This document shows positions 4,503 through 38,543 of a stretch of 64,000 bases of DNA, piece after piece. Position numbers and translations under genes: made by a program. The DNA comes from Lachnospiraceae bacterium (GTDB taxonomy: Bacteria > Bacillota > Clostridia > Lachnospirales > Lachnospiraceae): assembly GCA_017460885.1 (NCBI GenBank), contig JAFUAB010000008.1, positions 62,001-126,000 of the forward strand, read 5' to 3'. How positions within the stretch are numbered: the first letter of the stretch is position 1; the number at the start of each line of letters is the position of its first letter. The notes under the pieces were generated by a model. The model was not told where the DNA came from. It was given only the letters and a program-made list of their open reading frames with translations, and ran no database searches.

Positions 4503-4713
4503 CGATGCTTATCAGGAAGAGCTGTGCGATCATTTCGTTCCGGGTGAAGAATTCGATTTTTACTCAGATTATGACGACCTGTGCGCCAAGGTCGACTATT
4601 ACCTTTCTCACGAAAAGGAAAGACAGGACATTGCACGCGCCGGCCAGATAAAAGTTCAACGCGATTTTTCGCTGTCAAAGAGACTGGACGAAATGCTGGA
4701 GATGGCCCTATAG
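4503..4713 (+). pseudogene. CgeB-like glycosyltransferase, C-terminal remnant
   Basis: Only the last ~68 codons remain, from AYQEELCDHFVPGEEFDF to RLDEMLEMAL and TAG. The DNA is nearly identical to the end of the copy at 9191-9832 (a handful of mismatches over about 205 bp), so the two were recently one sequence. It has no start or ribosome site of its own. Its left boundary is the junction with the iron alcohol dehydrogenase remnant at about 4502. Confidence 0.8.
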
Positions 4714-5151: not shown

Positions 5152-6732
5152 TCACAGTTTTTCAATCTTACAACTATGCTTCTTAGCCCTACTATCATAA
5201 TTGATCCCGACAAGAAGCAATTCTCCGCCATAATCCCTGATACATTCAGGATAGTTTTTATCCTTTATCTGTGAAATCGCTGCATCTGCCATCTTATCCC
5301 ATTTTAATTCAATTATCATAGCAGGATTGGCAGAATTCCTCTTTGGCAGGAAAGCCACATCTGCGATTCCTTTGCCGGAAGGGAGTTCTTCAATCTTCAT
5401 ATATTGGTCCACACATGTGATATATGCAAATTTGATCACATATCTGAGTGCCTGCTCATTATTATAATATGTCGGTGCGTATTCCGATTCTCTGACACGG
5501 TCTATAGCCTCTGCCACAGCGTTTTCATCCCCATTGACGGTATCTCTCAAAAGCTGGTCAGACAGTCTTACCAATTCGGCCAGTCTTGCCTTACCCGGAT
5601 GTCTGATCAGATTATTAAACTCACTGTTTATCTCTCTGTTCGGAATCCTTACAGTACGATTGACCCTGTCATACGCCAGATATCCCAGGTGTACCATCAG
5701 AGTGAGAACATCATCGATCGATCTGAAATTGTCTATGTCGTTGCAAAACCCGCTGATATCTATTTCCGGCTCCTCACCTGATATCAGTCTGGCTATTTCA
5801 TCCTGCAAGCCATCGATATTTATACTTATCCACTCATACAGGTTGTCAGATGCAGACGTTCTCTGCCAATATGACTCATATATGCCGGAATTGGCCGCCA
5901 GCAATACAGAATTGGGATTGTATACAGCTCCGGATCTGCCGAATTCGTATCCATCGTACCAATTCTTCATATCTTCCGCAGATACTCCGTACCGCTTACA
6001 GATATTATCTACTTCGTTTTGAAGGAAACCTGTATACGGCTCCATGATCCCGGGATCAGTCATGGTATATTCTCTGAACTCAGATATGGCAGACTGTGAA
6101 CCGTCCTTCTTGATCGGCAGTATGCCGGTCATATATGCTGCAGCTACTGCATAAGGCGTAAAATTCCCGTTTTTAAACCACCCTCGCAGAAGTCCTAAAT
6201 AACTGTCCTGGGTTTGGATGTCCTTCCTGGCTTCGCGTATGACAGCATCCCATTCATCTATAATGAATATGATCTTTCTACCGGTCTTCCGGCAGTACCA
6301 GAGCAGACCATCATTTACATCCAGTTCCGGCGGGATTTCCGCATCCATCACCATCAGTTCTGCACGAATAGAATCTTTGATCCTTCTGGAGATATGCGTT
6401 ATCTCCTCTCTATCACTCTTCATCTCTGAGATGAATCCGGAAATATCCAGATATATGACATCGTATTTATTTATGTATTTATGATAGTCGGGCGACTTAG
6501 ATATCTCCAGATCATAGAAAAGGCTCTCGGAATCAACGGTTCTGTCGTAATATGCGCACAACATCTGTGCAGCCAATGATTTACCGAATCGGCGCGATCG
6601 GCTGACACAAGTCAATTTATTAAGGGTATCAATACTGTCATTGACACACTTGATCAGACCGCTTTTGTCTATATACTCACCATTTCTGATTACTTTAAAT
6701 GCTTCATTTCCGGGATTAATATATGTGCCCAT
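5152..6732 (-). CDS. AAA-ATPase-like / PD-(D/E)XK protein (copy A)
   Basis: The chosen ATG at 6732 (MGTYINPGN, about 526 residues) has AAGGA nine bases upstream and aligns with the start of the paralogue at 11558; an upstream in-frame start is less likely. The P-loop is SRSRRFGKS (residues 44-52), Walker B is IIFIIDEWDAVIREA, and the C-terminal GKGIADVAFLP followed by MIIELKWDKMADAAISQIK gives the PD-(D/E)XK D and ExK positions. It lies 113 bp downstream of the HipA-like kinase gene on the same strand, separated by a short hairpin (6765-6795). Biochemical function is unknown; an ATP-driven nuclease-like role is inference. Confidence 0.82.
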   Translation of the reverse strand: MGTYINPGNEAFKVIRNGEYIDKSGLIKCVNDSIDTLNKLTCVSRSRRFGKSLAAQMLCAYYDRTVDSESLFYDLEISKSPDYHKYINKYDVIYLDISGFISEMKSDREEITHISRRIKDSIRAELMVMDAEIPPELDVNDGLLWYCRKTGRKIIFIIDEWDAVIREARKDIQTQDSYLGLLRGWFKNGNFTPYAVAAAYMTGILPIKKDGSQSAISEFREYTMTDPGIMEPYTGFLQNEVDNICKRYGVSAEDMKNWYDGYEFGRSGAVYNPNSVLLAANSGIYESYWQRTSASDNLYEWISINIDGLQDEIARLISGEEPEIDISGFCNDIDNFRSIDDVLTLMVHLGYLAYDRVNRTVRIPNREINSEFNNLIRHPGKARLAELVRLSDQLLRDTVNGDENAVAEAIDRVRESEYAPTYYNNEQALRYVIKFAYITCVDQYMKIEELPSGKGIADVAFLPKRNSANPAMIIELKWDKMADAAISQIKDKNYPECIRDYGGELLLVGINYDSRAKKHSCKIEKL

Positions 6733-6764
6733 ATCATAAAGTCCTTGTTTGCATGTCCACAATT

Positions 6765-6795
6765 GAGGGTAAGTGTGTCACCGAACATTACCCTC
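6765..6795. repeat. Short inverted repeat between HipA-like and AAA/PD-(D/E)XK genes
   Basis: GAGGGTAA (6765-6772) and TTACCCTC (6788-6795) form a perfect 8-bp stem with a 15-base loop. Read on the minus strand there is no T-run after the stem, so an operator or attenuator-like element for the 5152-6732 gene is more likely than a terminator. A TTTGACCGATATAAAAGAG sequence just upstream (6796-6815 area) resembles the promoter segment before the ATPase at 7933-8982. Confidence 0.5.
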
Positions 6796-6845
6796 TTTTA
6801 TATCGGTCAAATATACTTTATATATTAGTATACTATTGTTAAGAA

Positions 6846-7922
6846 TCACTTATGCAAAAGAGTTCCCAGCCTCATCCCAAACATCTCCGCCAGTTCGGTC
6901 CTGTCCTCAAACCATGCGTAATCTACATCACATATCTGATTAAGACCTATAGCCTGTACTGCTTCGATCGCTGCCTGCTTCTGTGAGATATGTCTAGGCA
7001 GTAGTGTCTGGCACAGGCCACCCTCTATCGTGTCATATCCCTTAAAAGCATGGTTGAAGTCCATCAGATCATGCAGTCTGACCGGTCTTCCGTTGGAATT
7101 GTCGATCAGAAATCCCCAGTTTTCCCAATGTCTGTCAGTATTTCCCACCAGATAATCGAGGATATTCATCATATAGAAATTGTGACTGTCAAGTCCCAGT
7201 ATATATTCCAGGGGATCAATATCATTGTTCAGAGCATAGATGTCAAACGCAGCTCTGGTCGTAATGCTGTAATCAAGCCCCGTCATGATCCTGCTGACCG
7301 ACACCGGATACCCGTCATACTCGTCGGCTTCGTAGAGGACCTGATCACATTCGAAGCACCTGCATATCCGACTCGCCAGTATCTCGTTTCTTACGCTTTC
7401 CTCTTTCCCATCTTTATATAGATAGAACCCGTCTTCTCTTCTGATCCAGGCTTTGGGAGATACTCCGCTTGTCGACACATCGTCCGCTATCAGGTGAGCA
7501 TTTTCAACCGTCATGGTTCTGCCCCTGAGTGCTATATCCACGAAGGCATTATCCAAATGATTCTCATAGAGGTTAATATGCGGGAATTCTATATCTTCTT
7601 CACTGCTTTTGACCCAGTAGATATCCGTAAGATTCAGACAATGATAGGATAATGCGACAGCCGCACGCTCACGATCGGTTTTCCCCTGGGATGCACCGAT
7701 ACTGTCCAGTATCTCTTTGGCATATTCCCTGTCGAGGGTGAGCATACGTTTGGCGCACCAGTAATTGAAGTTGGTTATGTTATTAACCAGCGTATCTATG
7801 TCCGTCTCTTCATCGAACCACAGATCATATGGCATGCGATTACGATCAAGGATCCTGGCTATTCCGTTTTTCTCCAAAACGGCGACACATCTGTCACCGC
7901 ACATTATATTCCATGTTTTCAT
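6846..7922 (-). CDS. HipA-like protein kinase
   Basis: The protein has 358 residues. Kinase-fold landmarks are TSGVSPKAWI (151-160, glycine-rich/phosphate-binding segment), FYLYKDG (166-172, candidate ATP-binding lysine), the catalytic loop GNTDRHWENWG (260-270) and the metal-binding DFNHAF (288-293). HipA family members are Ser/Thr kinases, classically toxins that phosphorylate a translation factor; here the substrate is unknown. No HipB-type HTH antitoxin gene is adjacent. Instead the upstream gene, ending 10 bp before the ATG, encodes a P-loop ATPase with a winged-helix-like C-terminus, so the pair looks operonic. A truncated duplicate of the first ~37 codons is at 9843-9953. Kinase-fold membership is well supported; the toxin role is inferred. 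Confidence 0.82.
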   Translation of the reverse strand: MKTWNIMCGDRCVAVLEKNGIARILDRNRMPYDLWFDEETDIDTLVNNITNFNYWCAKRMLTLDREYAKEILDSIGASQGKTDRERAAVALSYHCLNLTDIYWVKSSEEDIEFPHINLYENHLDNAFVDIALRGRTMTVENAHLIADDVSTSGVSPKAWIRREDGFYLYKDGKEESVRNEILASRICRCFECDQVLYEADEYDGYPVSVSRIMTGLDYSITTRAAFDIYALNNDIDPLEYILGLDSHNFYMMNILDYLVGNTDRHWENWGFLIDNSNGRPVRLHDLMDFNHAFKGYDTIEGGLCQTLLPRHISQKQAAIEAVQAIGLNQICDVDYAWFEDRTELAEMFGMRLGTLLHK

Positions 7923-7932
7923 GATAATTGTC

Positions 7933-8982
7933 TTAATAGATATTTTCTCCGCTTCTTTCCGCTACATACTCTTCAAATCTGGGCAATGCCAAATTGATAT
8001 GTCCATATTGATTCGATGACAGGATGCCCTTTTTTATCAGTCTGTCACGATAAACCGAGAACTCTGACGTAGAGAAGCCTATACCCTCCCTTATATCCGT
8101 AACTTTTGTTTGGTGCGTCACTGCCATCTCCCGGACTATCTCCCTGTCTTTTCCGGACAATTCGGACCAGATCTTGTCGTATACATATTCTGCCAGATAT
8201 TGGTCGTATTCCGGCATTATCTCTTCCAAATCCGCTACACCTCTGTCCCATGCCAGATATCCTAATACCTGAAAAGCAAAAGAATAACCTTTCGTAAGCT
8301 TTGCCATATTCTCCGCTTCACGATCGTCTATATTAAACGTCTTCTTATAGTTCGCTTTTATGGCAGTAAAGTTGAGCGGTTCAAGCATCAGTTTCGGGGC
8401 TCTGTATAAAAATGTCAGTGCCTTGTCATTCTGAAGCGCATTAATATTCTCATATAGGCCAGTCATAAGCAGATATATCGGATAGTTTTTCCTTATATAT
8501 GTCTGATAAGATGCCACAAATGCCTTGATGTTTTGATTATTAGTGACTTCGTCAACCGTCACCAGCAGTTTTTTGCCGAGTTTAGCGACGTTTTCAAGCA
8601 TATGTCTTATCGCAATGTCCGTATCTATTACCGATATTCCGTTTTCCACGAACATCCCCAGCCCCAGGACCGAAAGATCGATCCTGGATTTCACCATTCT
8701 GTCTCTAATGGATATATCCGAATAAAGAGCTGCTGCCAGGCTGTGCAGCATATCTATCTCGGGATTCAGTTCAACAACCATCCAGGACTCGTCACGTGAT
8801 AGGGTTTCTGACACATTCGTCATCATTACGGTTTTGCCGCAGCCACTGACTCCGGTCAGAATGTACACTTTAGCGGACGGATTATCTGATTGAAATGTCT
8901 CAATAATCTGTGAACTCTGGGTCAATCTGTTTATATACCGGCTGGGTGTCTGTCCGAATGCTATATTAAACGGGTTATTCAT
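7933..8982 (-). CDS. P-loop ATPase with winged-helix-like C-terminus
   Basis: The protein has 349 residues. Walker A is GVSGCGKT (44-51), Walker B KKLLVTVDEVTNN, and the C-terminal ~90 residues (from about WSELSGKDREIVREMAV to FSVYRDRLIKKGIL) have the look of a winged helix. This architecture resembles AAA/STAND-like ATPases with a wHTH (archaeal-ATPase or Orc/Cdc6-like). It is paralogous to the gene at 13315-14403. The ATG at 8982 is preceded by ATAAGG. It is the first gene of an operon with the HipA-like kinase, under a repeat-rich promoter (8994-9122). It may act as regulator, antidote or sensor of the kinase, which is inference. Confidence 0.75.
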   Translation of the reverse strand: MNNPFNIAFGQTPSRYINRLTQSSQIIETFQSDNPSAKVYILTGVSGCGKTVMMTNVSETLSRDESWMVVELNPEIDMLHSLAAALYSDISIRDRMVKSRIDLSVLGLGMFVENGISVIDTDIAIRHMLENVAKLGKKLLVTVDEVTNNQNIKAFVASYQTYIRKNYPIYLLMTGLYENINALQNDKALTFLYRAPKLMLEPLNFTAIKANYKKTFNIDDREAENMAKLTKGYSFAFQVLGYLAWDRGVADLEEIMPEYDQYLAEYVYDKIWSELSGKDREIVREMAVTHQTKVTDIREGIGFSTSEFSVYRDRLIKKGILSSNQYGHINLALPRFEEYVAERSGENIY

Positions 8983-8993
8983 CCTTATAAACC

Positions 8994-9065
8994 TTTTTAT
9001 ATCTGCAAATTCTCTTTTATATCTTTTTATATCTCGAAACCGATTTTATATCTTTTTATATCTTT
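8994..9065. repeat. A/T-rich AGATATAAAA repeat cluster in the ATPase-HipA leader
   Basis: Read on the minus strand, AGATATAAAA-type units recur about five times between 9065 and 8994, two of them in back-to-back pairs. One pair supplies the -10 box of the predicted promoter, the rest lie in the 5' leader just before the ATG at 8982. They could be multiple binding sites for a regulator or slipped-strand repeats. Confidence 0.6.
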
Positions 9066-9071
9066 GGTCAA
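9043..9071 (-). promoter_or_regulatory. Promoter of the ATPase-HipA operon
   Basis: Minus-strand TTGACC (9066-9071), a 17-bp spacer and TAAAAT (9043-9048) form a good vegetative promoter. It points at the gene starting at 8982, about 55 bp downstream. The -35 box abuts two tandem 26-bp repeats (9071-9122). Confidence 0.6.
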
Positions 9072-9122
9072 CTATACTGTCTGTAAATAATCTTACACTA
9101 TACTGTCTGTAAATAATCTTAC
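9071..9122. repeat. Two exact tandem 26-bp repeats upstream of the -35 box
   Basis: The unit beginning ACTATACTGTCTGTAAATAA occurs at 9071-9096 and again, identically, at 9097-9122. It lies directly upstream of the -35 hexamer of the ATPase-HipA operon, the usual place for activator or repressor direct-repeat sites. Confidence 0.8.
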
Positions 9123-9190
9123 AAAAGGATAATGAGTACTCATACCACCACAAATTTGCTATTATATTATTAATAAAAGAGGACACCCGC

Positions 9191-9832
9191 ATGAAGATTC
9201 TCATAGCCGACTGGGACAGTTTCGGAGACAAGGACATAGAAGAGGTATTGCTTGCCGAGGGATCGGTACGGTATACCATATGCCTCTCGGGGTGAATACC
9301 GCCCGGTATAACAGACAGTGCGGTACTCCGACTGCGCATAAGAAACCCGGACATATCGACCTGACTACGGGGCCAATATCATCGACTCCCTCCTGACCGA
9401 TTGATCGGACAGACATTACCCGACAGGAAAACACTTCTTTTTACAAACGATATCAATGTACGGTTTAAAAACGTCAAAAACATCGGAGCCGTGGACTATT
9501 ATAAGGAAATGCCGGATGTCTTCCGCTCGGCACGCATAAATCTGAATGTCACGCTGCGAAGCATTCTGACCGGAATACCCCTCAGGGCACTGGACATCAT
9601 GGCCTCCGGCGGTTTCCTGCTCAGCAATTACCAGGAAGAGCTGTGCGATCATTTCGTTCCGGGTGAAGAATTTGATTTTTACTCAGATTATGACGACCTG
9701 TGCGCCAAGGTCGACTATTACCTTTCTCACGAAAAGGAAAGACAGGACATTGCCCGCGCCGGCCGGATAAAAGTTCAACGCGATTTTTCGCTGTCCAAGA
9801 GGCTGGATGAGATGCTGGAGATGGCCCTATAG
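9191..9832 (+). pseudogene. CgeB-like glycosyltransferase, internally deleted and frameshifted
   Basis: An ATG at 9191 opens MKILIADWDSFGDKDIEE, a typical start for this family. After about 18 codons the frame jumps to the VYHMPLGVN motif, normally near residue 170 or later, and then breaks. Homology resumes in another frame from about 9401 (IGQTLPDRKTLLFTNDINVR), through INLNVTLRSILTGIPLRALD, to RLDEMLEMAL and TAG at 9832. At least one large internal deletion and frameshifts are therefore present. The final ~205 bp are nearly identical to 4503-4713. Confidence 0.8.
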
Positions 9833-9842
9833 CACGGGCCGC

Positions 9843-9953
9843 TTCGAACCACAGATCATATGGCATGCGGTCCCGATCAAGGATCCTGGCTATTCCGTTT
9901 TTTCCCAGAACGGCGACACGTCTGTCACCGCACATTATATCCCATGAATTCAT
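9843..9953 (-). pseudogene. HipA-like kinase, N-terminal remnant
   Basis: Minus-strand codons from ATG at 9953 read MNSWDIMCGDRRVAVLGKNG and IARILDRDRMPYDLWF, matching residues 1-36 of the intact HipA-like kinase (6846-7922) at protein and DNA level. Homology ends abruptly at about 9843, next to the stop of the glycosyltransferase remnant. Its ATG is 15 bp downstream of the AAA/PD-(D/E)XK gene at 9969. An intact HipA gene therefore once followed that ATPase gene. Confidence 0.8.
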
Positions 9954-9968
9954 AATAAGTTTATTGTA

Positions 9969-11558
9969 TTATTGCAAAATAACCCTCTCTATTTTACATG
10001 TATGAGTCTTGGTACGTTCATCGTAATTAATCCCGACAAGAACCATTTCTCCGACGAAATCCTTTAGCACGCTGGGATACTTCCTGTTTTTTATCTGCTG
10101 CAACGCTGCTTCATCGGTTTTATTCCATTTCAATTCTATCAGCATTGCCGGAAGTGTGGTTTTTGCCTTTGGAATATAAACCACGTCTGCTATTCCCCTG
10201 CCCGATGGAAGTTCCTCTATACGTGAATATCGGTCGACGCATGAAATATAAGCAAACTTTATAACATATCTGAGAGCCTGTTCGTCATTATAATATGTAG
10301 GCGCATACGAAGACTCCCTGATTGCCTCTATCCTGTCACATACAGTTTTTTCATCACCTGCGAGCGTTTTGTCAAACAATCGATCGGATAGCCTGATCAG
10401 TTCATACAGTCCGGTTTTGCTGCCGGTTTTTAGCAGGTTCTCGAACTCCTTCTGTACTTCCTTATTGGGAATCCTCACCCTGCCGCAGTTACTGTCATAG
10501 GCCAGATATCCCAGATGGATCAGCAAGGTGATGACATCATCCTTGTTATCAAAAGATTCTATGTCGTTATCAAAGCCATCAACATTGACTTCCAGGTGTT
10601 CCCCGGCAATAAGCCGCACAATATCTTCTTTAAGTCCGTCATAGTTCATGGCGATATATGTAGACAGTGCCTCGGCAGCTGAGGTTTTCTGCCAATATGA
10701 TCCGAAACTGCCCATTCGTATCGCGGTCATGACTGAATATGGATTATATACGGATACATCTGATTTAAAAGAATATCCATCATACCATTCCTTTATGGCA
10801 TCAAAACTGACATTATGCTGATCACACAAAATGCTTACTTCATTCTCGGTGAAACCGGTATACTCCGCAAAATCGCCCGGATTCAGAATCGTATACTCCA
10901 TAAAATCCGAAATTGCAGACTCCGTGCCATCCTTTTTTATTGGCAGAATACCGGTCATATATGCCCCTGCAACAACCCTGGGCGTAAAATTGCCATTCTT
11001 AAACCATCCTCTCAAAAGATTTAAGTACGCCTCCTGCGTATTCTTATCGTTTTTTGCCTCTCTGATCACAGAATCCCATTCATCTATTATGAAAATAAAC
11101 TTTCTACCGGAACGATCCACATAATCCATTAATATATCTTCCAATTCACTTTCAGAACTTGCTCTGCTAAAACATGTGGCAATATCCTTTTTCAATGCAT
11201 CGGTTATATCTTCAACAAGCCCATTCATAGACTGCTTCCTGCGCTTAAGATTGGATATAAAGCCCGTAATATCAAGATATATGACATTATACTTATTCAG
11301 ATAATCCCGGTAATGCTCATCTTCGCTAATGGCAAGACCATCAAACAGTTCCGCAGAATCACAGGTACAGTCATAGTATGCACAGATCATCTGTGCGGCA
11401 AATGATTTGCCAAAACGTCTCGGTCGGCTTATACACGTGAGTTTCTGCGGTGTATCTATTGTGGAATTCATCAGCCCGATAATTCCAGTCTTGTCAACAT
11501 AATCACCATTTACAATCGTCGCAAATCCCACATTGCCTGGATTAATGTATACCCCCAT
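9969..11558 (-). CDS. AAA-ATPase-like / PD-(D/E)XK protein (copy B)
   Basis: The protein has 529 residues and is a close paralogue of the gene at 5152-6732, collinear along its whole length. It has P-loop SRPRRFGKS (about residues 44-52), Walker B FIFIIDEWDSVIREA and C-terminal GRGIADVVYIPKAK followed by MLIELKWNKTDEAALQQIK. The ATG at 11558 follows GAGGATGATCTG, which lies at the end of the coiled-coil gene upstream, so translation of the two may be coupled. Downstream sits the HipA-like remnant. It appears intact; function unknown. Confidence 0.82.
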   Translation of the reverse strand: MGVYINPGNVGFATIVNGDYVDKTGIIGLMNSTIDTPQKLTCISRPRRFGKSFAAQMICAYYDCTCDSAELFDGLAISEDEHYRDYLNKYNVIYLDITGFISNLKRRKQSMNGLVEDITDALKKDIATCFSRASSESELEDILMDYVDRSGRKFIFIIDEWDSVIREAKNDKNTQEAYLNLLRGWFKNGNFTPRVVAGAYMTGILPIKKDGTESAISDFMEYTILNPGDFAEYTGFTENEVSILCDQHNVSFDAIKEWYDGYSFKSDVSVYNPYSVMTAIRMGSFGSYWQKTSAAEALSTYIAMNYDGLKEDIVRLIAGEHLEVNVDGFDNDIESFDNKDDVITLLIHLGYLAYDSNCGRVRIPNKEVQKEFENLLKTGSKTGLYELIRLSDRLFDKTLAGDEKTVCDRIEAIRESSYAPTYYNDEQALRYVIKFAYISCVDRYSRIEELPSGRGIADVVYIPKAKTTLPAMLIELKWNKTDEAALQQIKNRKYPSVLKDFVGEMVLVGINYDERTKTHTCKIERVILQ

Positions 11559-13213: not shown

Positions 13214-13322
13214 AAATATCATCCCTGATCCACTTGTCCTGATATGTGTTCTTAAAGAAACCCGCAGTATTATAAATTGCTTCCGGCATGTCGCCAAAAT
13301 ATATGTTTAGCATTTCAGTCAT
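13214..13322 (-). pseudogene. DUF4869-like protein, N-terminal remnant
   Basis: The minus-strand ATG at 13322 overlaps the TGA of the ATPase gene (13315-13317). The frame reads MTEMLNIYFGDMPEAIYNTA then GFFKNTYQDKWIRDDIS before it runs into antisense of the glycosyltransferase remnant at about 13213. The segment resembles the start of DUF4869 proteins, from memory. The stop/start overlap shows it was the translationally coupled next gene after the ATPase at 13315. Confidence 0.55.
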
Positions 13323-14403
13323 CTCCCCATACTTCCACAAACCTGTCAAAGCTTGGCAATCGAATGCTCAGATACCCCCTCGAATCAGCGTTTGCCAGAT
13401 GCTTGTTGATCAGGCGGCTCCTGTAGACGGGGTAGGTGTTCGGATTGCTCATTAATGCCCTGATCTCATCCGTTCTGCCGTGTGGAGCTTTTAAGATGCA
13501 CCTCACTACTTCCTTTTCGCCTTTGGACAGGGATCGCCATATGAGTTCATATGAATCCCGAAACAATATGCGCTCGAAATCCGGGATGACGTCATCAATG
13601 GTCTCATTCTCTGCCTTAGCAAAGTACAATGATCCCAAAACCTGATATGCATATGCATATCCCCGCGAAATCTCCTCCAGCTGCCTGGCCTCCTGCAAGT
13701 CAATCCCAAGCAGTTTCTGGTACATGTACGTGACGTCATACTTGTTCAGTTCGCTGACTTCCCGTGAATCTGCCCTCTTGAAAAATGAGAGGTTTTCCTC
13801 GCCGGAGAAATCTTCTATGTTCTCAGACAGTCCGGTAACCACCAGATATACCCGGAGTCCCTCCAGGATCATTGAGCCTATGATCGAGAGCAGGCGCACC
13901 ATGTCCGGAGTTTTCGAAATGTCGTCCACCCCAACCAAAACCTTATACTTCTTTTTATTTGCGATGCTGATCATGTTTGTCAGGGTTGCTTCCTCGGAAT
14001 ACAACCGCTCGTTATCACTTATGGTCTTTTGAACGTTTATCGTCTCATTCCCGGATACTACCAGTGCACCTCCTGAGACTGAAGTGGCCGAGCCGGTCAC
14101 GGTCGTAACGGTCTTGTCATCTATGAAGCTCTCCATGCTCAATTTGGAAATGAGCGTACGTACCGCCTCGCCCGATGCTGACAAAGGATATACCAGCCAA
14201 TTCTTCTCATCTTTAAGCTCTCTGATGATCCGACCGTATTCAACGGATTTTCCGGATCCGCGAAGTCCCGTAATCTTGAAGACAAATTTGGCAGATTCTT
14301 CATCCAAAAAGCATTTTATTATCTCATCCGCTATGCCGTTGTCTATATATGCCCTGCCCGCGATGCCGGGAGTTCTGGTAAAAGGATCTGTCTTTAATGT
14401 CAT
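13315..14403 (-). CDS. P-loop ATPase with winged-helix-like C-terminus
   Basis: The protein has 362 residues and is paralogous to the gene at 7933-8982. Walker A is GLRGSGKS (46-53), Walker B KVLVGVDDIS, and the C-terminal ~80 residues (WRSLSKGEKEVVRCILKAP through YRSRLINKHL) look like a winged helix. ATG at 14403 has a strong AGGAGG six bases upstream. Its partner was a DUF4869-type gene rather than the HipA-like kinase, so the ATPase family is combined with different effectors. Function unknown. Confidence 0.75.
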   Translation of the reverse strand: MTLKTDPFTRTPGIAGRAYIDNGIADEIIKCFLDEESAKFVFKITGLRGSGKSVEYGRIIRELKDEKNWLVYPLSASGEAVRTLISKLSMESFIDDKTVTTVTGSATSVSGGALVVSGNETINVQKTISDNERLYSEEATLTNMISIANKKKYKVLVGVDDISKTPDMVRLLSIIGSMILEGLRVYLVVTGLSENIEDFSGEENLSFFKRADSREVSELNKYDVTYMYQKLLGIDLQEARQLEEISRGYAYAYQVLGSLYFAKAENETIDDVIPDFERILFRDSYELIWRSLSKGEKEVVRCILKAPHGRTDEIRALMSNPNTYPVYRSRLINKHLANADSRGYLSIRLPSFDRFVEVWGDD

Positions 14404-14542
14404 TGCCGGCCTCCTGTAAATCTATGGGTGTTCGTCTTAAGCATATATGGATATTTTATGCTTAAACTGTACTATTTATTTTGTGTTATTTTATCGTCCG
14501 ATATTTTATCTTTTGTTATGATTCTATTCTTTCTTTTATCCG

Positions 14543-36950: not shown

Positions 36951-38468
36951 TTATACCGGAATATACATGATCATATATCCGTTTTCCTTTATTTTCTCAG
37001 CAAATTCGCGGCTTATGCTGACGTGATCGCCGGTTTCCCGGATCCTGTCCATATACTCCCGGTGCAGATCCATAAGTTCCGGTCTTACCCTTATATATCT
37101 TATATCGGCAAAAGCCACATCCTGGGCGCAGTCAAATCTGTTGAACCTGCCGGCATAATGCTTAAAGGTACCCGAATACAGCCAGTTGCCGTTTTCGTCC
37201 GCTATACATTCCGACATCCGTCCGTGTCTGTCAAATACCCTGACGGCCACGGCTCCTATATCGGAGCGGATCGCAAAAATCCCGGAAATATACGTATCTA
37301 TATCCTCTTTTGACGGATTTCCGGACTTTTGACGGTCTGAAGCAGCGACAGCGCTTCCGGATCTTTCCGGCTTCGCCTGGCCGGTGTCGCCGGCTGAAGA
37401 CTGTCCCCAGACTATATTGTAAAATCCCAGGTGCCTGCTGTGGCGAACATCACCGGCGTTTTCGCCGTACATGACCCTGATATGTTCCCGAAGAGCCTCC
37501 CGTCCCGCCTCGTAAGCATAATACTTGCTGGCAGTGTTGGTCGCCGTACTGCCCGCATGACTTCTCCAGTGATAAAGGACACGGGTTACGTGAACGATCT
37601 GATTATCCAGCTCCGTGACCGGTATGGGATCTGAAACGGGCTCGTCACCATGTCCGCACAGCAGTCGGATCGTACTCAGAACAAGATCATAATCCTGTGC
37701 CCCGTCATATTCGGATCTGAAGCGGATCTTTGCAGCAATATCGCGGCGTATCAGCATCAGATGGCAGATATAATTATTGGATAAAATTAAATCGTAATTG
37801 AATTTATATTTGATATGATCATCGAAATACATGACTGACCCCGAAGCTTCATCAGCGGTCATCTTGTCTTCGTCTGAGTATAGCAGGGCAGGTTTTTGAT
37901 CCGGATCACGGAGACGGTTCTTTTGATCCGGATCACGGGGACGGTTTTTTTGATCCGGATCCATGATCGCCATCGCCATATGATACAACGCATCGGGAGT
38001 GAGTACATCATCATGATCCAGCAGTGCGATATAGTCACACGCCCTTCCGTTCACACTTTTAAGTGCCTCCGTTACACCTTCGTTGGTATTGGCCGATATC
38101 CCCCTGTTTTCATTCAGTTTAAGATAGATTATGCGCGGATCGCCGGAATACTCACCAGCGATCCTTTCCACGCAGTCTTGGTCGGAAGCGTCGCTGATCA
38201 CAAGTCTCCAATCCGGATAGGACTGGCGGACGACCGAATCCACGGCCTCTCTCAGGAAGCCGGCAGGAGTATTATAGGCGGGCATGACCACTCCTATAAG
38301 AGGCCGCTCCTGCAGTCCCTCAGACTCCCCCCTCTGCCTCTCAAGCTCCGCTGCACCGGGTGAAACGTAGCTGTAAGCAGGACCTCTCCGTAGTTTAAGT
38401 CGCTCCTTTACGGCATAATATGTATCGGAAATCCCGTTTCTTTTGAGATAATTCAAATACCGGTTCAT
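36951..38468 (-). CDS. GT2 glycosyltransferase with internal 9-residue repeats
   Basis: The start MNRYLNYLKRNGIS at 38468 is preferred because a longer frame would run through the hairpin at 38491-38526. About 505 residues; the GT2 domain starts IGVVMPAYNTPAGFLREAVD, with YIALLDHDDVLTPDALY and LYSDEDKM. Between the HDD and SDEDK motifs is an insertion of tandem DPDQKNRPR/DPDQKNRLR/DPDQK, encoded by 27-bp repeats (37894-37960). A C-terminal ~130-residue extension of unknown fold follows. It probably builds surface polysaccharide with the following gene. Confidence 0.88.
   Translation of the reverse strand: MNRYLNYLKRNGISDTYYAVKERLKLRRGPAYSYVSPGAAELERQRGESEGLQERPLIGVVMPAYNTPAGFLREAVDSVVRQSYPDWRLVISDASDQDCVERIAGEYSGDPRIIYLKLNENRGISANTNEGVTEALKSVNGRACDYIALLDHDDVLTPDALYHMAMAIMDPDQKNRPRDPDQKNRLRDPDQKPALLYSDEDKMTADEASGSVMYFDDHIKYKFNYDLILSNNYICHLMLIRRDIAAKIRFRSEYDGAQDYDLVLSTIRLLCGHGDEPVSDPIPVTELDNQIVHVTRVLYHWRSHAGSTATNTASKYYAYEAGREALREHIRVMYGENAGDVRHSRHLGFYNIVWGQSSAGDTGQAKPERSGSAVAASDRQKSGNPSKEDIDTYISGIFAIRSDIGAVAVRVFDRHGRMSECIADENGNWLYSGTFKHYAGRFNRFDCAQDVAFADIRYIRVRPELMDLHREYMDRIRETGDHVSISREFAEKIKENGYMIMYIPV
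37894..37960. repeat. In-frame 27-bp tandem repeat inside a GT2 gene
   Basis: About 2.5 copies of a unit starting TTTTGATCCGGATCACGG and containing GGA/GGACGGTT (37894-37920, 37921-37947, 37948-37960). Length is a multiple of three, so the frame is kept and each copy adds nine residues. The unit carries a GGGGACGGTT core like that of the terminator at 14842. Confidence 0.85.
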
Positions 38469-38490
38469 CCGGCGATTCTCCAAAATACAG

Positions 38491-38526
38491 GCAAATGCCA
38501 CAACTCCCGGGAGCCATGGCATTTGC
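38491..38526 (-). terminator. Hairpin after the phosphoglucomutase gene
   Basis: GCAAATGCCA (38491-38500) and TGGCATTTGC (38517-38526) form a perfect 10-bp stem, 18 bp beyond the stop of the gene at 38544. The following sequence, TGTATTTTGG on the minus strand, is only moderately T-rich. Confidence 0.65.
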
Positions 38527-38543
38527 ATAAAAGAACTTATTAA

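Follow-up and report, generated by a model that had tools for sequence, protein, structure and literature searches.

An ATPase family with helically phased promoter arrays and its probable autoregulation beside a HipA-like kinase gene in Lachnospiraceae

Promoter arrays of the ATPase family

In this work, the ATPase gene A, the HipA/CtkA-like kinase gene K and the gene N for an AAA-type protein with a PD-(D/E)XK domain, which follow one another on the reverse strand of a Lachnospiraceae genome, were analysed within a stretch of 64,000 nucleotides (contig JAFUAB010000008.1, positions 62,001 to 126,000; hereafter the window). We propose, with a probability of about 0.74, that A reads a private, helically phased array of short sites at its own promoter and regulates its own gene. 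The array is conserved across the A family in position and phasing, it is linked almost exclusively to A genes in the DNA scanned, and its letters covary with the recognition helix of the protein encoded behind it. We infer that the winged helix of A binds this array directly.

The array in the window consists of copies of GATATAAAA and one degenerate site (Table 1), with a spacing of 10, 19, 10, 20, and 10 bp. Its first pair of sites lies between and over the -35 and -10 hexamers of the A promoter. A repeat scan returned the array with a 29-bp period at 8993-9063 and also found a perfect 26-bp repeat, which bears out the tandem repeats that an initial annotation of the window had reported for this promoter. 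When a 20-mer of two sites was searched for in the source genome (3.6 Mb) with up to 3 mismatches, it was found at the A promoter (three places) and at one stray position with 3 mismatches, and nowhere else.

The A family is large and belongs mostly to Lachnospiraceae. Relatives were detected in 38 of 299 genomes of this family at an E-value of 1e-40, and in 4 of 398 phylum-wide genomes at 1e-15, namely the source genome and three of its family. The 80 named loci with relatives from catalogued genomes (80 of at least 552 confirmed) include, according to the record titles, a few from Streptococcus, Coriobacteriaceae, Atopobiaceae, Erysipelotrichaceae, and Oscillospiraceae. The upstream DNA of nearly all A homologues carries rows of short direct repeats, the letters of which differ from member to member. 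After merging and removal of duplicates, at least four copies of a ~10-bp site were present within 200 bp of the start in 111 of 114 members. Furthermore, at least four copies of a 10-mer were counted in the 160 bp upstream of 77 of the 80 relatives, compared with 32 of 314 control open reading frames (ORFs) of the same loci, which are mechanical calls with uncorrected starts. The intervals within the arrays (n=624) follow the turn of the DNA helix: 337 measure 10 bp and 174 measure 19 bp, and 585 deviate by at most one base from a multiple of 10 bp. Of 111 arrays, 82 are preceded by a TTGACA-like hexamer at up to 40 bp on their 5' side, a frequency to be set against 449 of 2220 shuffles; in 51 arrays the hexamer adjoins the first copy, at a distance of -2 to 3.

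A scan for the lattice itself (10/19-bp spacing, TAWA cores) over 1.386 Mb yielded 95 clusters, 93 of which were located at -120 to +300 bp of an A start; since the DNA scanned comprises loci chosen for holding A or K, the result measures the near-absence of clusters from the remaining DNA of these loci. Three first-order Markov copies gave 0, 1, and 0 clusters. Under a stricter strand rule, the lattice was present at 92 of 109 A genes. Arrays are lacking upstream of K-, N-, and DUF4143-type genes, where 2 of 32 stretches reach four copies.

Covariation with the recognition helix and the proposed mechanism

The structure model of A (predicted local distance difference test, pLDDT, 92.7) matches archaeal ATPases, NLR/CED-4 cores, and Orc/Cdc6 in structure comparison. 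It has the nucleotide-binding domain (NBD), helical domain, and winged helix of the STAND/NLR-type NOD fold with a P-loop (Walker A, GVSGCGKT), and the third helix of its helix-turn-helix (HTH) forms the recognition helix. The NOD match spans the 349 amino acids of the protein, with neither a fused effector nor a repeat sensor domain. Pfam gave only sub-threshold matches, to ATPase_2/AAA/nSTAND models (24.3 bits for ATPase_2, PF01637, at a gathering score of 33.2), and the Orc1/Cdc6 model TIGR02928 was matched with 12.8 bits at a cut-off of 181.3. As modelled, the ATPase A has the domain order of an NLR/Apaf-1/Orc1 core and nothing beyond it. The ORF recognised in the initial annotation was confirmed, and the model supports its C-terminal winged helix.

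When protein positions were scored against the array consensus, the best two were V310 and S309 (A numbering). In 8-residue windows, with overall protein distance removed by partial correlation, the best seven windows start at 303-309, followed by 302 and then by the wing (323, 330). The observed value was reached in 0 of 500 permutations. Of 31 proteins with proline at position 310, 21 have AGTAAA sites, compared with 1 of 80 others; valine goes with TATAAA, TATAAC, or TATATA in 48 of 57, and threonine with TATAG, TATTA, or TATGA in 8 of 9.

Several observations weigh against autoregulation through a private array. An array in close position is missing in 3 of the 114 members: that of locus L158 lies ~260 bp upstream of the start, L197 has a single AGTAAA-type pair, and the lattice of L196 is 957 bp away (no A remnant was found beside this lone lattice, and its explanation as the mark of a lost A was rejected). 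R93 and R335, outside the helix, rank third and fourth in covariation; because such positions also score, shared ancestry contributes to the signal. Paralogues within one genome are not kept apart, a 6-bp core being common to 5 of 35 pairs at 1.9 expected; selection for distinct sites among them is unsupported, and the pairs are if anything more alike. The arrays run in the sense direction and partly within the 5' leader, which leaves room for RNA binding. In addition, HipA-like genes were found with a broader kinase profile in the flanks (~1.5-6 kb) of 4 of 113 A loci (L154, L161, L176, L109). This exceeds the ~0.3 expected from their average density in 0.77 Mb, an expectation that derives from ~113 matches in 100 genomes, is higher for genomes holding up to 8, and varies with the choice of genomes, so that no enrichment is claimed. 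Near A, N-type genes were also seen in 2 of 5 other A regions of the source genome (L082, L084) and in 2 of the 80 named loci (L154, L197).

It is hardly credible that the arrays are neutral AT-rich promoter repeats and that the covariation reflects shared ancestry only. The sites are AT-rich, related proteins share them, and some scoring positions lie outside the helix, but several results speak against this reading: control ORFs show arrays far less often, N-, DUF4143-, and K-type genes lack them upstream, and the partial correlation has its maximum at the recognition helix once it is conditioned on protein distance. Translational autoregulation, in which A would recognise the RNA form of the repeats within the leader of its transcript, is very improbable. 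The sense orientation and the many copies between promoter and start codon would suit it; on the other hand, the spacing follows the DNA helix turn and the covarying residues are those of the winged-helix recognition helix and wing. The ~10-bp phasing favours DNA over RNA, and so does the position of the first copies, which cover the -35/-10 region of the promoter.

The fold match to Orc1/Cdc6 raises another explanation, namely that A is an initiator of this type and autoregulation a secondary effect; the array would then be the iteron-type origin, or the partition site, of a former replicon or of an integrated one. Origin-linked initiators also have private repeats beside their own gene. Distant A relatives occur on 19 plasmids (24.6-38.0% identity among the 15 matches listed), and of the eight plasmid loci read (L237-L244), two have clear arrays (L238 and L244), one of them a six-copy array in Lactobacillus crispatus; the other six have 3 or 4 scattered or short copies, which is the level of the control genes. 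Such an initiator is nevertheless quite unlikely, as the arrays span a sigma-70-like promoter to near the start codon, the source genome holds eight full-length A-type genes (10 match rows, one being a duplicate and one a fragment), and the genes downstream of A, named by eye, look ordinary chromosomal or polysaccharide-related. Moreover, no A relative was found in viral contigs with the two peptide patterns used, and phage records gave two weak matches.

We hypothesize that autoregulation by A most likely takes the form of nucleotide-dependent, cooperative autorepression. The winged helix would read helically phased ~10-bp sites over and behind its own promoter, and sites that cover the -35/-10 region and the leader on one face of the DNA would suit cooperative binding and repression. 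The ATPase activity presumably sets the oligomeric or binding state. K is presumably part of the A transcription unit and should share the control of the A promoter, and N would perhaps be touched through one stray A site. For the locus we infer repression, not activation, governed by ATP/ADP, with A assembling as oligomers on the array and K co-transcribed. A wider idea, possible and advanced only tentatively, is that A proteins form a large bacterial family of minimal cores of the NLR/Apaf-1/Orc type in which the winged helix, regulatory in NLRs, reads DNA in a sequence-specific way. They would assemble in a nucleotide-dependent manner on a 10/19-bp promoter lattice, with a specificity code in residues 303-311 and the wing. 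The result would be a molecular switch templated by DNA, under which local genes can be captured, in the window those of a HipA-like kinase and of a nuclease-like protein.

Kinase, nuclease-like protein, and local gene order

The gene order of the initial annotation stood up to analysis. The kinase, recognisable by its position and motifs, lies 10 bp behind the ATPase; the ORF adjoining it on the 5' side is A, no HipB-type gene being seen there; and the AAA/PD-(D/E)XK protein is next on the same strand, with PF09820 (94.6 bits) and PF08011 (32.5 bits) above the cut-off, which places N in AAA-ATPase_like and PDDEXK_9 (DUF1703). Relatives of N mostly begin with MGxYxNPGN, so the TTG listed as its start (6762) is probably too early and the ATG at 6732 likelier, which makes the gap from K to N ~113 bp.

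Eight residues of K (K157, K170, N261, D263, R264, H265, N268, and D288) are invariant in 20 aligned sequences, i.e. the window and 19 relatives, and again in a broad set of 19. We take the conserved motifs to be the Gly-rich loop, the Lys, the catalytic NxDRHxxN, and the Mg-binding Asp, and K has the motifs of the HipA/CtkA kinase superfamily. Its match to Pfam HipA_C (21.3 bits) is below the cut-off of 30.5, and a search of the source genome with PF07804 pointed to three other places, none over the cut-off and K not among them. By profile, the PDB returned CtkA (3akj) at E 3.9e-6 and HipT at E 0.26. Full-length relatives of K were present in five viral-contig records. A structure model of K (alignment n=6) had a pLDDT of 38.4, too low, and was set aside.

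The initial annotation had suggested that A, K, and N are a candidate three-part phage-defence or toxin system, and adjacency across genomes was checked. Other genomes supplied 33 loci with K homologues, among them 20 close relatives (one frame-broken); two of the loci lie at a contig start and lack upstream DNA. In none of the 33 was an A or N gene found near K. Among 39 A regions, the K label appeared in the window only. The 113 A loci hold 107 different A proteins, and the four HipA-like genes near them are of at least three kinds by sequence, in differing arrangements; a fifth such ORF (L119) is marginal at E 0.0027. They point weakly to a shared habitat rather than to a system. A ~275-aa HipA-like family stands beside A in two of these loci, upstream on the same strand in L161 and divergent in L176. 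The N family is multicopy, with 32 match rows in the source genome, and 67 of 299 family genomes hold matches at E 1e-40; no K-like gene was seen in the 1.5-kb flanks of 29 N loci from other genomes. A pairing of K with N, suggested by two places in the source genome, the window and L080, was rejected on the evidence of these flanks. A conserved A-K-N unit is likewise rejected: homologues are rarely adjacent, the outcome that the initial annotation had named as counting against its proposal.

A true A-K(-N) toxin or defence operon, in which A senses a trigger and represses and/or neutralises the kinase with N as nuclease effector, is unlikely. The 10-bp gap between A and K and the complete kinase motifs of K are in its favour, as are the HipA-like genes near other A loci and a second, distant HipA-like gene of the source genome (L080, 7742-10650), which is followed ~75 bp on by an N-type AAA-ATPase_like/PDDEXK_9 gene. 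Further in its favour, the sole exact A site outside the array in the 64 kb sits with a TTGACC at the N promoter and is absent from all 36 other N upstream stretches examined; by chance about one such 9-mer is expected per 64-kb window, but seldom in this position. Against the operon stand the K and N loci without the other genes and the truncated second K copy, which in the window follows a different gene. Moreover, no PADLOC system was recognised among A, K, and N: K gave short catalytic-loop matches to PDC-M03A (E 3.1e-10, best stretch 24 residues; the partner component was not sought), N none, and A weak ATPase matches. Given the site at the N promoter, the three genes may be under shared control locally, through the DNA site of A rather than through an antidote.

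The initial annotation had also placed the ATPase in the position of HipB as a sensor-antidote. The two halves of this proposal fare differently: very probably A fills the part of HipB in hipBA as a DNA-binding autoregulator, but K relatives are also found where A is absent, so the kinase does not in general require A as an antidote. At the 33 K loci, no neighbour family is common to more than 5, and a conserved adjacent HTH antitoxin of the hipBA kind was not found. A DUF6864-like protein of ~120 aa is encoded upstream of K in 4 of the 20 close relatives (L060, L061, L064, L069), within 34 bp in 3, its identity being Pfam-checked in two of the four; it is a possible partner of this kinase family, and a general K-DUF6864 pair was rejected at 4 of 20. 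A search of the source genome for a DUF6864-type gene, made without a positive control, found none.

How K came to stand behind A can be approached from the repeats around the genes. The remnant of a second K start (Table 1) shows only a loose likeness to K in its leader, and retention of the K leader was rejected. Judged from this truncated copy behind a different gene, K-type genes have come to follow at least two different neighbours. The 3' end of a Glyco_trans_1_2-type gene occurs three times, at 4509-4713 (the reference), 9628-9832 (96% identical), and 591-795 (61%). From the remnant and the duplicated glycosyltransferase fragment together, the A-K junction appears to be the product of local rearrangement. 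Glyco_trans_1_2-type fragments surround clusters of AAA-type genes, a duplication hotspot.

No conserved downstream partner of A emerged: a same-strand ORF lies no more than 30 bp behind the gene in 29 of 119 cases, and these ORFs are of mixed functions (named by eye). Among the downstream proteins there is a cluster of six sugar-transferase-like proteins (five Butyrivibrio loci), and five resemble the DUF4143 protein of the window. In the Butyrivibrio loci L139, L140, L142, L143, and L144, a sugar-transferase-like gene, named by eye, is no more than 10 bp behind A or overlaps it, and A may control sugar-transferase-like operons there. Elsewhere in the source assembly, several genes occur twice with equal scores on contigs C32 and C38 (~176000-194000), which together with 6.64% contamination suggests assembly redundancy. 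A 27-bp tandem repeat of 2.5 copies at 37894-37961 of the window overlaps ORFs on both strands (36951-38528 and 37896-38363).

Table 1. Features of the window, with positions counted from its first nucleotide.
Feature	Position	Strand	Remarks
ATPase A	7933-8982	-	349 aa; minimal NBD, helical domain, winged helix; recognition helix 305-318
HipA/CtkA-like kinase K	6846-7922	-	358 aa; 10 bp behind A stop
AAA-ATPase_like + PDDEXK_9 protein N	5152-6762 as listed; probably 5152-6732	-	536 aa as listed; named by Pfam
Array over A promoter	8985-9062	-	GATATAAAA at 9054-9062, 9044-9052, 9025-9033, 9015-9023, 8995-9003
Degenerate sixth array site	8985-8993	-	ends just before A start codon
Sigma-70-like promoter of A	9043-9071	-	TTGACC 9066-9071, 17 bp, TAAAAT 9043-9048
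Perfect tandem repeat, 2.0 x 26 bp	9071-9123		directly upstream of A -35 hexamer; sequence unlike array
TTGACC followed directly by GATATAAAA	6796-6810	-	before N
Second, divergent A-type ATPase	13315-14403	-	own looser array behind TTGACT
GATAAAA sites of second A-type gene	14534-14540, 14504-14510, 14489-14495		behind TTGACT
Remnant of second K gene	9828-9953	-	first 42 codons, 74% identical; 15 bp behind stop of AAA/PDDEXK gene 9969-11558
Glycosyltransferase 3'-end fragment	4509-4713	+	205 nt; 96% identical to 9628-9832; duplication around cassette

Comparison with known systems

We know of no role for the 'ATP-binding protein' genes of A's class. If A acts as proposed, each member of the family names its own probable binding site, which makes this class testable; exchanging single residues would then be a way to check the specificity code that the covariation provides. 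The family could also supply promoter-regulator pairs for anaerobic Firmicutes. For the window itself, the picture would shift from a presumed three-part defence system to a gene that regulates itself and is followed by a kinase gene. A literature search, mostly at the level of titles and the beginnings of abstracts, found no paper linking an ATPase of A's kind to promoter arrays.

By fold, A matches the archaeal ATPases PABY2304 (PDB 2qen) and SSO1545 (PDB 2fna), at 14 and 13% identity, respectively; to our knowledge, no function has been assigned to either. It also resembles the NOD core of NLR, Apaf-1, and CED-4 proteins (STAND; NRC4, RPP1, CED-4), which are switches of immunity and cell death in plants and animals, but A ends at the winged helix, without an effector or repeat sensor, and unlike in NLR-type cores its winged helix holds the covarying residues. 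The NB-ARC domain of Rx1 was reported to bind and bend DNA, and the available part of that source shows no private operators (PMC4599002). The A family bears on the question of whether the winged helix in NLR/Apaf-type switches descended from, or is still able to act as, a DNA reader as in Orc1/Cdc6.

K shares the HipA-type kinase motifs of hipBA, hipBST, and CtkA, with CtkA as its nearest solved relative by sequence. It differs from hipBA and hipBST in lacking HipB, in falling below the HipA_C cut-off, and in the DUF6864-like gene upstream of some close relatives. In their survey of kinases, Gerdes et al. distinguish ten gene arrangements for HipA homologues; in the part consulted, no ATPase partner appears (PMC8262856).

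Two systems are close to A in what their proteins do with DNA. The first is that of the Orc1/Cdc6 initiators, which have a fold like that of A. In these, the winged helix binds DNA repeats, and the repeats are linked to the gene. The A arrays, unlike theirs, are on the ATPase's own promoter, and the TIGR02928 score of A is far below the cut-off. The second is RepA, a ParA-type protein of repABC plasmids, an ATPase that represses the operon encoding it by way of that operon's operator and is specific with ADP (PMC4492784). RepA differs from A in belonging to the ParA family, in its imperfect-palindrome operator, and in its place in a plasmid partition operon.

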